Positions 19,360 to 41,676 of a stretch of 48,135 bases of DNA are shown here, one piece after another (within the stretch, counting starts at the first letter, position 1; the number at the start of each line of letters is the position of its first letter). The stretch lies in contig NZ_FNYY01000030.1 of NCBI RefSeq assembly GCF_900109145.1, forward strand, positions 1 to 48,135. Direction: 5' to 3'. The notes beneath the pieces were generated by a model. That model was not told where the DNA came from. It ran no database searches and saw nothing but the letters and a program-made list of their open reading frames with translations. A program made the position numbers and the translations under genes. This stretch comes from Marinovum algicola. Lineage in GTDB: Bacteria; Pseudomonadota; Alphaproteobacteria; Rhodobacterales; Rhodobacteraceae.

Positions 19360-20859
19360 TCACCCCATCGTCGGCATGACGAATTCCGGGTCGCTGCGAA
19401 CGCCAGAGGGCCAGCGGGTGGTGATGGTCTTGAGCCGGGTGTAGAACCGCACGCCCTCAGCGCCGTGCATGTGGTGATCGCCGAACAGCGAGGCCTTCCA
19501 GCCGCCGAAGGAGTGGAACGCCATCGGCACCGGGATCGGCACGTTGACGCCGACCATGCCGACCTCGATGTCATGCGCGAAGGTGCGGGCGGCGTCGCCG
19601 TCGCGGGTGAAGACCGCCACGCCGTTGGCATATTCGTGGCCGTGGATCAGGTCGACCGCCGCCGCATAGTCCTTGCGGCGCACAACCGACAGGACCGGGC
19701 CGAAGATCTCTTCACGCCAGACCGTCATGTCCGGGGTCACCTCGTCGATCAGAGTGGGGCCGACGAAATAGCCGTTCTCGTAGCCCTGCGGCGGGGTGAA
19801 GCCGCGGCCATCGACAACGACCTTGGCACCCTCGGCCTCTCCCTTGTCGATTAGGCCGAGGATCTTTTCCTGCGCCATCTTGGTGACCACCGGCCCCATT
19901 TCGGAGGACCGGTCCGCCGCCGGGCCGACCTTCAACGCCTCGATCTTCGGCACCAGCTTTTCGATCAGCGCGTCGGCCACCTTGTCGGTCACCGGCACCG
20001 CAACCGAGATCGCCATGCAGCGTTCGCCGGCCGAGCCATAGGCGGCGCCCATCAGCGCGTTGGCGGCCATGTCGAGATCGGCGTCGGGCAGGATCACCAT
20101 GTGGTTCTTGGCGCCGCCGAGCGCCTGTACGCGCTTGCCGTTCTTTGTGCCGGTCTCATAGATGTATTTCGCGATCGGGGTCGAGCCGACGAAGCTGATC
20201 GCCTTGACATCCGGATGCTCCAGCAGGGCATCAACCGCGCCCTTGTCGCCCTGGACGACGTTGAACACGCCTTTCGGAAGGCCGGCCTCGGCCAGCCATT
20301 CGGCGATCAGGATCGAGGCCGAGGGGTCACGCTCGGAGGGTTTCAGGATAAAGGTGTTGCCGCAGGCCAGCGCCACCGGGAACATCCACATCGGCACCAT
20401 GGTCGGGAAGTTGAACGGGGTGATCCCGGCCACCACGCCCAGCGGCTGGCGCAGGGAGTGGCTGTCGACGGCGGTGCCGACATTCTCGGTGATCTCGCCC
20501 TTCAGCAGGTGCGGCGCGCCGACCGCGAATTCGACCACCTCGAGGCCGCGGGTCACCTCGCCCTTGGCGTCGTCATGGGTCTTGCCGTGCTCGGCCGAGA
20601 TCACCTCGGCCAGTTGGTCGGCACGGTCCCAGAGGATCATCTTGAACCGGTCTAGGATGCGCGCGCGGCGCAAGGGCGGGGTCTTGGACCAGGTTTCCCA
20701 GGCGGCCCTGGCGGTGGCCACGGCGCGGTCGACCTCTTCGGTCGAGGCCAGCGCGACGGTTTTTTCAGCCTCGCCGGTGGCGGGGTTGAAGACGGGCTGG
20801 TTGCGGCCCGACGTGCTGGCCACGCGTTCGTTGTCGATGAAATGTCCGATTTCGGTCAT
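19360..20859 (-). CDS. iolA: Methylmalonate-semialdehyde dehydrogenase (CoA-acylating)
   Basis: This 499-residue CoA-dependent aldehyde dehydrogenase carries out the last iol step: malonate semialdehyde to acetyl-CoA and CO2. The ALDH fold is clear, with [14 protein letters not shown], the SFVGSTPIA nucleotide-binding segment and the nucleophile Cys at about 281 in [10 protein letters not shown], followed by [11 protein letters not shown]. Length matches MMSDH enzymes (about 500). The ATG at 20859 ([10 protein letters not shown]) is the family start; the frame is open far upstream but reads through iolB on another frame. It is the last gene of the operon, 77 bases after iolB. Confidence 0.93.
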
Positions 20860-20936
20860 GGCTGTGTCCTTCGTTGTTATCCTGGTTGTCCTGTCGCCGG
20901 TTCCGCCCGGCCTGATTGCAGCAACACCGTGGGCCG

Positions 20937-21743
20937 TCACCCGTCGCGTTCCATGATCCATTCGACTTCCGGCGCGGGGACGAAGCGCCAGTTGCGGCGG
21001 GGGCCGGCCATGACGTTGAGGTAGTACATCTCGAACCCGTAAGGCGCGCCGCAGGGGTGGTGGCCGCGCGGCACCAGCACCACGTCGCCGTCCTTGACCG
21101 CCATGGTCTCGTCGAGCAGGCCGTCGTCGGTATAGACGCGCTGGATGCCGAAGCCCGAAGAAGGGTTGAGGCGGTGGTAGTAGGTTTCTTCGAGATAGGT
21201 GATGCGGGGGAAGTCGTCTTCGTCGTGGCGGTGACTGGGGTAGGAGGACCAGTGGCCCGCGGGGGTGAAGACTTCCGTCACCAAGAGCGAGTCGCAGTAA
21301 TCCTCGTTCTCCATCGCGATATTGTTGATGTGGCGGGTGTTGGTGCCTTTGCCGCGTTCTGTCAGGCTGATGCCGCCCGGCCCGATGCGGCGTGCCGCGT
21401 GGCCGCCCTTGCCCGGCGCGGAACAGACGGCGAGGACGCAGTCGGTTTCGGCCTCGACGGACCACTCGGTGCCGTTCGGCAGGTAGAGGCAATGCGGCGA
21501 GGACTTCTCGAACACGTTCATGCGCTCACCGAGAGTGCCCCAGTCCTGCCCGGCCCCGGTGACCTGTGCCTTGCCCTCGACCATGACGAGGATGACCTCG
21601 GTGTCGCCCGTCGCCTCGGCGGCGGTGTCGCCGGGCTTCAGGTGGTAGAGCGAGAAGCCGACGTAGCGCCAGCCGGCACTTTGCGGTGTGATCTGGTGCA
21701 CCTTGCCGCGGGCGCCGAAGGGTTTGCGCAAGAGGTCAGCCAT
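20937..21743 (-). CDS. iolB: 5-deoxy-glucuronate isomerase
   Basis: This 268-residue bicupin isomerizes 5-deoxy-glucuronate to 5-dehydro-2-deoxy-gluconate. Diagnostic segments include [30 protein letters not shown] with metal-binding histidines and glutamate (about residues 165-180), and [21 protein letters not shown]. Length fits the family (about 270). Its start overlaps the stop of the small membrane-protein gene by 8 bases. Product feeds the IolC kinase. Confidence 0.93.
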
Positions 21744-39872: not shown

Positions 39873-40691
39873 ATGTACCACAACCGCCCCCATGTCGAAG
39901 ACATCCGCGCCATGAAGAAGCGCGGCGAGACGATCTCAATGCTCTTCGTCACCACCCCCGACGAAGCCGCTGCCGCTTCGGAGGCGGGCATCCACATGCT
40001 GTCGATCGAAGGCCGGTTCTTCGATGCCGAGATGCGCGAAGCCGCGGGTGACTGCTTCGTCCAGGTTGGTCTCCCCTATGGCGGTTGGGGGCAGTTCAAC
40101 GGCCGCGCTCTCGCCATCGCAGAAGACTATCTGCGCGCGGCCTTTTACTACGCGTCTCTCGGCGGCGATTGTTTTTATTGCTCGGCATCTTATGACATCC
40201 AGAAAGCGCTGTGTGACAACCACATCCCGGTCGTCGGCCATATCGGGCTGATTCCGTCCTACATCACCTGGACCGGATGGCGTGCCGTCGGCAAGACCGC
40301 GGACGAGGCGTTGGCGCTGTGGAAGCATACGCAGAAGCTGGAGGAGATTGGCGTATTTGCCGCTGAACTCGAGGTGGTGCCCGACCGCGTGGCGCAGTTT
40401 CTGACGGAAAACTCCTCTCTGGTGATGCTCGGCATGGGTGCGGGAAAACATGCCGACGCGCAGTACCTCTTCACCGAAGACATCTGCGGTTACGGCAAGA
40501 ACCACAAGCCGCGCCACGGCAAGGTCTACCGAAATTTTGCGCCCGAGTTGGAACGCTTGCAGGCCGAACGCATTGCGGCTTTCCGCGAGTTCCGTGCCGA
40601 CGTCGATTCCGGCGGCTACCCGGGACCGGAGCACAGCGTCGCGATGGACGACGGTGCATTCGACACCTTCACGGCGCAGGCACGGACCTGA
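39873..40691 (+). CDS. Divergent PanB-like (ketopantoate hydroxymethyltransferase-fold) protein
   Basis: This 272-residue protein resembles PanB, the enzyme that transfers a C1 unit from methylene-tetrahydrofolate. The segment GHIGLIPSYITWTGWRAVGKT matches PanB's GHLGLTPQ region, and the catalytic-Glu motif (FAAELEVVP) is retained. The three Mg-binding positions look changed by alignment from memory: GDS-Asp region reads SIEGR, the ADLPF Asp is Gly in VGLPYG, and the KLEGG Glu reads CSASY. A normal pantothenate role is therefore doubtful. Sitting 19 bases after the reductase in a demethylase-like operon, it might handle the released C1 unit or a ring substrate; this is inference. Confidence 0.7.
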   Translation: MYHNRPHVEDIRAMKKRGETISMLFVTTPDEAAAASEAGIHMLSIEGRFFDAEMREAAGDCFVQVGLPYGGWGQFNGRALAIAEDYLRAAFYYASLGGDCFYCSASYDIQKALCDNHIPVVGHIGLIPSYITWTGWRAVGKTADEALALWKHTQKLEEIGVFAAELEVVPDRVAQFLTENSSLVMLGMGAGKHADAQYLFTEDICGYGKNHKPRHGKVYRNFAPELERLQAERIAAFREFRADVDSGGYPGPEHSVAMDDGAFDTFTAQART

Positions 40692-40815
40692 GAGCTGATA
40701 AGCCGGGGCGTGCCGCCGGTCGCGCAGGCCCCTTCCTCCCTTTCTCATCCGCTTCTAGCATGCCGCAGACGCCGACCGGGGCTGTGCGGCGCCAAACCTA
40801 TGGGAATACAAGCAC

Positions 40816-41676
40816 ATGCCCGACCTTCACATCCTGCAATCGCTCTGGGGAATGGAGCGCCACCACTCAGACGGTCAAGAATGGAGCACGGAGGAGCAGT
40901 TCGAAATGATCGCCGCGGCCGGGTTTGACGGCATCTGTACGCATTTCCACACCCGATCCGAGATCGAGCCCTGGATCGGCCTGGCCCGCGATCGCGGCTT
41001 CGTCATCGAAGGCCAGGCCTTTCCGCGTGGCGTCGAGGACCTGCGCCCGGCACTTGAACTGGCTGCCGAGCATGGTATCCACCATCTGACCATCCAGCCC
41101 GACGTGCGCCCCTATGATGTCGCCACGAGCCTGCCGATCCTGGCTGGCTGGCAGGAACTGTCGCAGGAATACGGCGTGCCGGTTCTTGTCGAAACGCATC
41201 GGGGGAGGATGACCAACGATCTCTGGTCGACACGCGAAATGATCGACCGGCTGGGTGACCTGCCTCTCCTGGCCGACCTGTCGCATTACGTCTGCGGACA
41301 GGAGATGACGATGCCGATTTCTCCGGTGAACCAGGCGATGATCGCGCGCATTCTGCGCCATGCCCATGGTTTCCACGGCCGGGTGGCGAGCGCCGAGCAG
41401 ATACAGATTGAAATCGGTTTCGACTGTCACCGCCCCTGGGTCGATCAGTTCATGACCTGGTGGGCGATGGGATTCAGCGATTGGCTGGGCCGGGGCGCAC
41501 CGGGCGGCAGCCTGACATTCACGATCGAACTGGGGCCGAAGCCCTACGCCATCTCGGGCGCGGACGGCAACGACCTTACGGACCGCTGGCAGGACGCCCA
41601 GAGTCTTCACAAAATGGTGCGCGACCTCTGGTCACGCGTGACCGGGGCGGAGCTGTCACTTTCCGAGGCATCCTAA
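40816..41676 (+). CDS. TIM-barrel sugar isomerase/epimerase-like protein
   Basis: This 286-residue xylose-isomerase-like TIM barrel is read from VLVETHRGRMTND, LPLLADLSHYVCG, RVASAEQIQIEIG and LTFTIELGPKPYAI, which offer the usual Glu/Asp/His/Glu metal ligands. It is the last gene of the plus-strand operon, 124 bases after the PanB-like gene. It is distinct from the two TIM-barrel proteins in the iol operon. An inosose or sugar acid isomerase, or a role in the substrate's later steps, is possible. Confidence 0.75.
   Translation: MPDLHILQSLWGMERHHSDGQEWSTEEQFEMIAAAGFDGICTHFHTRSEIEPWIGLARDRGFVIEGQAFPRGVEDLRPALELAAEHGIHHLTIQPDVRPYDVATSLPILAGWQELSQEYGVPVLVETHRGRMTNDLWSTREMIDRLGDLPLLADLSHYVCGQEMTMPISPVNQAMIARILRHAHGFHGRVASAEQIQIEIGFDCHRPWVDQFMTWWAMGFSDWLGRGAPGGSLTFTIELGPKPYAISGADGNDLTDRWQDAQSLHKMVRDLWSRVTGAELSLSEAS

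Follow-up and report, generated by a model that had tools for sequence, protein, structure and literature searches.

The window analyzed here is the whole 48,135-base contig (C51) of the 5.4 Mb Marinovum algicola genome, and it carries a catabolic island in which a plus-strand operon built around a membrane oxygenase of the PF04116 family (termed OX below) faces a complete inositol (iol) pathway. The operon is a variant of the moc-type system known from rhizopine catabolism: it has the same redox partners, MocE and MocF, and a PanB-like protein, with an unrelated oxygenase and a full iol pathway attached. The replacement of MocD by a PF04116 subfamily in a recurrent operon is new here, as are the frequent PanB-like gene in moc modules and the PurU, at times with FolD, encoded within the operon in a few loci. 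The island is best read, with a probability of roughly 0.6, as a system for the O-demethylation of a methylated inositol such as pinitol, in which the methyl carbon would pass to folate and the ring to iol catabolism.

The plus-strand genes are arranged in the order OX (36187..37212; the open reading frame (ORF) opens at 36082, and the likely ATG is at 36187), Gfo/Idh/MocA-superfamily dehydrogenase (37263..38291; nearest model PRK11579, below its cut-off), MocE-family Rieske ferredoxin (38309..38620; TIGR02377, 151 bits against a cut-off of 136), MocF-type ferredoxin reductase (38666..39853; Pfam Pyr_redox_2/Reductase_C), PanB-like protein of the ketopantoate hydroxymethyltransferase (KPHMT) fold, a proposed one-carbon (C1) transferase (39873..40691; PF02548; TIGR00222, 87 bits against a cut-off of 208), and TIM-barrel sugar isomerase/epimerase-like protein (40816..41676; PF01261, 32.6 bits against a cut-off of 31.1). 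The gaps along this run are 50, 17, 45, 19, and 124 bp, and the six genes are therefore consistent with one operon. The last two genes had gone unmentioned in the original prediction, which was made from the same stretch of DNA. MocE, MocF, and the PanB-like protein are homologous to proteins of rhizobial moc operons (58-60%, 49-52%, and 49%, respectively). The values against the Sinorhizobium locus (S. meliloti RCAM1115, L177) were 60% for MocE, 52% over 406 amino acids for MocF, and 49% for the PanB-like protein, and MocF matched R. etli mocFa at 49%. The "MocA-like" dehydrogenase holds at the superfamily level, and its identity as MocA was rejected beyond that level, as the comparison with the Sinorhizobium MocA candidate gave 33% over 187 amino acids and 71 bits, below the 121 bits of the IolG in the window.

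The oxygenase, which had been called MocD-like, proved to belong to another family. OX scored 56.8 bits for PF04116 (FA_hydroxylase; cut-off 31; 4e-15), the sole Pfam family at E 0.001, and the residues H192, H196, H205, H208, H209, H283, H286, and H287 were invariant across 30 aligned OX sequences including that of the window; the gathering cut-off and the histidine clusters thus both place it in PF04116. MocD is of the desaturase kind according to a passage in PMC2593844. The blastp comparison of OX with the MocD encoded elsewhere in the same genome gave E 0.77, R. etli MocD was not matched by OX in blastp at E up to 10, and the profile-profile comparison of 30 OX with 9 MocD sequences returned a probability of 0.9%. 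A PF00487 search of the whole genome found four places, none of them on C51 and one of them the moc operon on contig C21. OX as MocD was therefore ruled out, as it is a member of PF04116 rather than PF00487 without detectable similarity to MocD.

Next, the operon was followed in other genomes. A scan of named genomes with OX yielded 45 relative loci, of which the nearest was that of Mameliella sp. MMSF_3455 (L001; 86%). Gene content was counted by profile searches in the 35 loci for which 6 kb or more was available downstream of OX, and the LacI gene in the 40 loci with enough upstream sequence. Importer parts were detected as the substrate-binding protein (SBP) in 33/35, the permease in 32/35, and the ATPase in 33/35. 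The other parts were MocE (29/35), PanB-like (25/35), a hydroxypyruvate-isomerase-like TIM barrel (24/35), IolG (16/35), MocF (6/35), GFO (6/35), and MocD (4/35). The second dehydrogenase and the other TIM barrel were each found in 16/35, PurU and FolD in 0/35, and a divergent LacI gene in 37/40. Given the frequencies of SBP, MocE, PanB-like, and divergent LacI genes, the gene order of the OX operon is not due to chance. The original prediction had proposed a search for the same gene order elsewhere; the two-strand layout was found in 1 of the 45 loci (L001, within a reach of 20.9 kb), and the set of oxygenase, importer, and MocE recurs in many Rhodobacteraceae.

Some relatives depart from this arrangement. 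One or two PF04116 oxygenases share their cluster with a MocD-type gene in L039 and in three Mameliella loci (L002, L006, and L015; Pfam check in L002). Two of these Mameliella loci (L002 and L015) have two adjacent PF04116 oxygenases, the second at 56-59% to the OX of the window, beside the MocD-type gene, and thus three oxygenases per one MocE. The rhizobial plasmids L086 and L087 show the order LacI-OX-MocE-SBP-MocF-TIM barrel, with no PanB-like gene among the features shown. A contig assigned by binning to Blastopirellula (Planctomycetota; L037) also has an OX-SBP pair, possibly through transfer or a binning error.

Under the O-demethylation reading, the ATP-binding cassette (ABC) importer would take up a methylated inositol, and NAD(P)H would supply electrons that reach the PF04116 oxygenase by way of MocF and then MocE. 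The oxygenase would hydroxylate a methyl group, most likely an O-methyl, and the resulting hemiacetal would lose its one-carbon unit. The PanB-like protein would most likely move this unit to tetrahydrofolate as methylene-tetrahydrofolate, the carbon of which would be turned into formate by FolD and PurU, presumably encoded elsewhere in this genome, and the freed inositol would enter the iol pathway. We infer the demethylation, the substrate, and the activity of the PanB-like protein. Pinitol is the first candidate substrate because the second dehydrogenase and the TIM-barrel isomerases would suit an inositol of the D-chiro type; the choice comes from the match to a D-chiro-inositol model (261 bits, cut-off 540) and is correspondingly provisional. 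The island had been predicted to unmask methylated or amino-inositols. The methylated substrates agree with the oxygenase fed by MocE and MocF, the importer, and the full iol pathway, whereas the aminated ones were not supported, as neither MocR nor the rhizopine-SBP equivalog was found among the window proteins scanned: the regulators there are of the LacI family, and the SBP reached 153 bits for the rhizopine SBP model (rhzpin_SBP, NF052284; cut-off 420).

The fate of the methyl carbon was approached through PurU and FolD. In 2.20 Mb of OX and MocE stretches, some overlapping and all chosen without regard to PurU, profile searches gave five PurU matches (L085, L089, L090, L091, and L146) and three FolD matches (L089, L091, and L146), and every one of them was in a locus with an OX-type operon and a PanB-like gene. 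NCBIfam models confirmed PurU in L146, L091, L085, and L090, and FolD in L146 and L091. The gene order in L146 is MocF-PanB-like-FolD-PurU-IolG; its oxygenase is found in L088, beyond the start point of the circular record, and by length and coordinates both stretches belong to one plasmid. Three further loci were picked because PurU was near: L178 and L179 contain mocD-mocE-mocF-PanB-like-PurU-FolD (PurU and FolD confirmed by NCBIfam in L178), and the Sinorhizobium locus L177 contains mocD-mocE-mocF-PanB-like-purU, its mocD being split into two frames. These frames overlap in the record (L177, 12859-13943); the gene may be broken, or the sequence may be in error. Among the 20 plasmid records shared by the MocE and PurU match lists, each limited to 60 records, the best places were at most 5 kb apart in 8; five of the eight are from S. 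meliloti and two are equal-length records from one Rhizobium strain, so that about three lineages stand behind them. The presence of PurU, and sometimes FolD, in the same operon in a minority of loci points to a folate-linked disposal of the methyl carbon.

This evidence also bears on the possibility that OX hydroxylates a ring position in a quercitol-type deoxy-inositol, or that its substrate is an O-methyl sugar instead of an inositol. PF04116 enzymes are C-H hydroxylases, which suits such a reaction, and other sugar ABC genes stand beside some MocE loci (permease types recognized by eye). However, PurU and FolD in the operons of some relatives imply the release of a one-carbon unit, which argues against the deoxy-inositol, and the adjacent full iol pathway argues against the sugar, so that we consider this alternative unlikely.

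To place the PanB-like gene, we looked for MocE matches at E 1e-30 in 198 genomes of the family (51 matched) and 289 genomes of the class (12 matched), with the own genome in each. The resulting 79 stretches cover 80 of the 81 non-own MocE matches, the remaining match being in L085, and four of these stretches overlap loci already obtained in the OX scan. Counted around the best MocE of each stretch, within 4 kb and on the same strand, a PanB-like gene was present in 48/79 loci, comprising 36/55 with MocD and 9/12 with OX. The oxygenase was MocD in 55 loci and OX in 12, two of these having both, and 14 had neither; in five of the 14, MocE was 4 kb or less from the end of the stretch, and L148 and L154 have an OX further off. 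MocF was found in 7. The commonest run was MocD-MocE-PanB-like. The gene that follows mocFa in R. etli CIAT 652 carries the annotation "probable ketopantoate hydroxymethyltransferase", and PanB-like homologues were found in 286 plasmid records at E 1e-20 or better, the annotated ones in the rows shown being named as pantothenate-synthesis enzymes. The PanB-like gene is thus common in moc modules and is a neglected partner of both oxygenase systems.

The PanB-like protein fell short of the KPHMT equivalog model, as given above, and its predicted structure (pLDDT 84.6) showed the KPHMT fold, with 3vav as the nearest entry (TM 0.75, E 1e-17). Compared with ketopantoate hydroxymethyltransferase (PanB), the fold, one His, and the Glu base are kept, whereas the residues for Mg and substrate are replaced or unalignable. 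In KPHMT, two Asp, a Lys, and a Glu make up this site; in 22/22 PanB-like rows, G stands at the second Asp, Y at the Lys, and A/S at the Glu, and the first Asp falls in an unaligned stretch (gap). We tentatively propose, at somewhat less than even odds, that the PanB-like protein is an overlooked KPHMT-superfamily enzyme that carries the oxygenase-derived C1 unit straight to tetrahydrofolate. It would then be a common fourth component of rhizopine and O-methyl-inositol demethylation, shared by two unrelated oxygenase families, and the methyl carbon would become methylene-tetrahydrofolate and then formate (through FolD and PurU) rather than free formaldehyde.

Alternatively, the PanB-like protein could be off the pathway, serving pantothenate synthesis as a second enzyme or having some side role. 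Its nearest models are indeed PanB models, and in 31/79 MocE loci no PanB-like gene lies within 4 kb. The genome, however, already has a canonical panB elsewhere (346 bits), with a panC-like ORF (recognized by eye) after it, and the loss of the canonical residues in all PanB-like rows likewise makes this alternative improbable. Slightly less likely still is a C-methyl inositol as the substrate, of which laminitol and mytilitol are types: OX would hydroxylate the C-methyl group, a dehydrogenase would make the neighboring ketone, and the PanB-like protein would remove the hydroxymethyl group by a KPHMT-type retro-aldol reaction. KPHMT makes and breaks C-C hydroxymethyl bonds and the PanB-like protein has its fold, the island has extra dehydrogenases and isomerases, and several relatives are marine by name; against this, the PanB-like gene also follows mocF in a rhizopine locus, whose substrate carries an O-methyl group, and the KPHMT Mg-site residues are missing.

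The phylogeny of OX was analyzed with 30 OX sequences and 12 general alphaproteobacterial PF04116 rows (11 from 30 fetched PF04116 loci, as plus-strand ORFs with two His motifs, and one ORF of the own genome, L077). All 30 OX sequences were on one side of a branch with 99/98 support, separated by a long branch from the 12 general members. The original prediction had named clustering with sterol or lipid hydroxylases as evidence against it; such a relationship was found for the superfamily (FA_hydroxylase, "sterol desaturase") but not for the context of a lipid enzyme, the clade being separate and linked to MocE, and the genomic context points away from a lipid substrate. An ordinary lipid or sterol hydroxylase sitting here by chance, with MocE and MocF as general electron carriers, is accordingly very improbable, since its PF04116 membership and the "sterol desaturase family protein" annotation of relatives are outweighed by the separate clade and by the retention of OX with importer, MocE, and PanB-like genes in most relatives with enough sequence.

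Several observations weigh against the O-demethylation reading itself. Six of the 35 OX relatives have no MocE in the stretch covered: L008 and L009 show importer genes only, L007, L027, and L032 show other parts, and L039 has its MocE in the longer overlapping stretch L150. Most loci examined, and the window as far as scanned, have no PurU or FolD. Because it lacks the KPHMT residues that hold Mg and substrate, the PanB-like protein may not perform hydroxymethyl transfer at all. The genes alone do not separate O-methyl from C-methyl or deoxy substrates, the substrate being a prediction, and no solved relative of OX was found by a PDB sequence search or a Foldseek fold search.

On the minus strand, 19360-33505 encodes the full iol set (IolA, B, C-J fusion, D, E, and G) and the ABC importer, each iol protein scoring above its NCBIfam cut-off. 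These are IolA, methylmalonate-semialdehyde dehydrogenase (19360..20850; TIGR01722, 694 bits, cut-off 448.5), IolB (20937..21743; TIGR04378, 353 bits, cut-off 205), IolE (21945..22870; TIGR04379, 378 bits, cut-off 290), IolD (22874..24694; TIGR04377, 913 bits, cut-off 715), the IolC-IolJ fusion (24801..26711; NF047869, 678 bits, cut-off 600), and IolG (26704..27699; TIGR04380, 410 bits, cut-off 355). The starts of IolA, IolE, IolD, and IolG are approximate, their ORFs opening at 21492, 23441, 25153, and 27780, respectively. Two TIM-barrel isomerase-like proteins (both PF01261) follow, one of the hydroxypyruvate isomerase type (27731..28504; TIGR03234, 110 bits, below cut-off) and one with a weak IolE-type match (28506..29465; TIGR04379, 34 bits, below cut-off; the ORF opens at 29594, with a likely ATG at 29465). 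The second inositol-type dehydrogenase (29462..30487) has a myo-/D-chiro-inositol dehydrogenase model as its nearest (NF052679, the 261-bit match above), and the importer consists of an ATPase (30583..31407; PF00005), a permease (31419..32456; PF02653), and the SBP of the sugar/inositol type (32546..33505; PF13407).

Two LacI-family regulators (both PF00356 and PF13407) sit between the strands, one on the plus strand and divergent from the importer and iol operon (33903..34970), the other on the minus strand and divergent from the oxygenase operon (34989..36044). The predicted layout of importer and full iol pathway facing the plus-strand operon across two LacI regulators is thus present, and these proteins presumably regulate the island. 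Two overlapping palindromes lie at 33823-33855, upstream of the first regulator. A common operator for both regulators was sought, and these palindromes differ from that at 36079-36094. Neither of two sequence patterns was found again when the 330 nt preceding the ORF were searched in 60 OX copies, the search being anchored on ORF starts, which may differ from gene starts.

The island is flanked by an IS1182 transposase (17542-18942) on the left and an IS3 transposase (42314-43204) on the right, and a MobA/VirD2-type relaxase and a VirD4-type coupling protein precede the IS1182 transposase (region 13094-18942). These features suggest that the island is probably mobile, and several relatives are plasmid-borne. 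Elsewhere on the contig, 46361-47590 encodes an APH-fold phosphotransferase-like protein (PF01636), and 8176-9237 encodes a protein with a helix-turn-helix and an IrrE-like peptidase that resembles the spr1629 repressor/antitoxin family, with a score below the cut-off. In two other contigs of the genome (C17, L080; C41, L081), iolC-J/iolD lies at the end and iolD scores the same (788.1 bits in both); the assembly may have broken at a repeated iol segment.

In summary, the gene content of the original prediction was confirmed and its interpretation was partly supported. The presence of OX in place of MocD suggests a reusable unit of ferredoxin, reductase, and PanB-like protein that accepts unrelated oxygenases. 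If the link among PanB-like, PurU, and FolD is true, it would explain where the methyl carbon goes when rhizopine and related compounds are broken down and would assign a testable function to a few hundred genes that, where annotated in the rows shown, are now named as pantothenate-synthesis enzymes. Passages of the literature describe pinitol, ononitol, and similar O-methyl-inositols as abundant in legume nodules (PMC8730688) and, in one study of Mimosa root exudate, pinitol as the most concentrated component measured (PMC5789663). In the open-licence PMC literature, nothing was found on rhizopine with tetrahydrofolate; the passages available on rhizopine with hydroxymethyltransferase concerned serine hydroxymethyltransferase only, those with formaldehyde concerned other genes, and those on MocE with ferredoxin and inositol stated that MocE is needed for rhizopine catabolism and nothing further. 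No link to a PanB-like protein or PurU was found in this literature, the original rhizopine papers being outside its scope.

Among the known systems, rhizopine catabolism is described as consisting of the units mocDEF, mocR, mocBA, and mocC (PMC10107442), with mocDEF as part of the pathway (PMC5789663) and MocD as the oxygenase that converts 3-O-methyl-scyllo-inosamine to scyllo-inosamine (PMC2593844). The rhizopine locus (S. meliloti/Rhizobium leguminosarum; L177) shares with the window MocE, MocF, the coupling to inositol catabolism, and the PanB-like gene directly after mocF. In L177, an iolE-type gene is accompanied by candidates for MocA and MocB, assigned from their positions, and by a MocR (756 bits against the rhizopine-MocR cut-off of 650), and the SBP beside MocR gave no match to the rhizopine-SBP model either. 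It differs in having a PF00487 MocD and a MocR regulator, whereas the window has the PF04116 OX and LacI regulators, no MocA or rhizopine-SBP equivalog was found in the window, and the full iol set and importer are on the same island. In rhizobia, mocDEF clusters that are linked to LacI and lie beside fixV homologues or sugar epimerases have already been read as inositol-derivative catabolism in a passage of PMC3538637, and the general idea is therefore not new. The cluster of R. etli CIAT 652 (L175) shares the divergent LacI, a nearby sugar epimerase, and the PanB-like gene after mocF, but it has a PF00487-type MocD and no iol operon in the 17-kb stretch read. A further comparison comes from the M. 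algicola genome itself, in which contig C21 (L079, 9711-14648) carries a divergent LacI and then mocD-mocE-mocF-PanB-like, adjoining iolB at the contig end. Its MocE, MocF, and PanB-like proteins match the window copies at 62%, 44%, and 57%, and a divergent LacI is present in both; its oxygenase, however, is a MocD orthologue of PF00487 (72% to R. etli mocD), so that two unrelated oxygenase types coexist in one genome.

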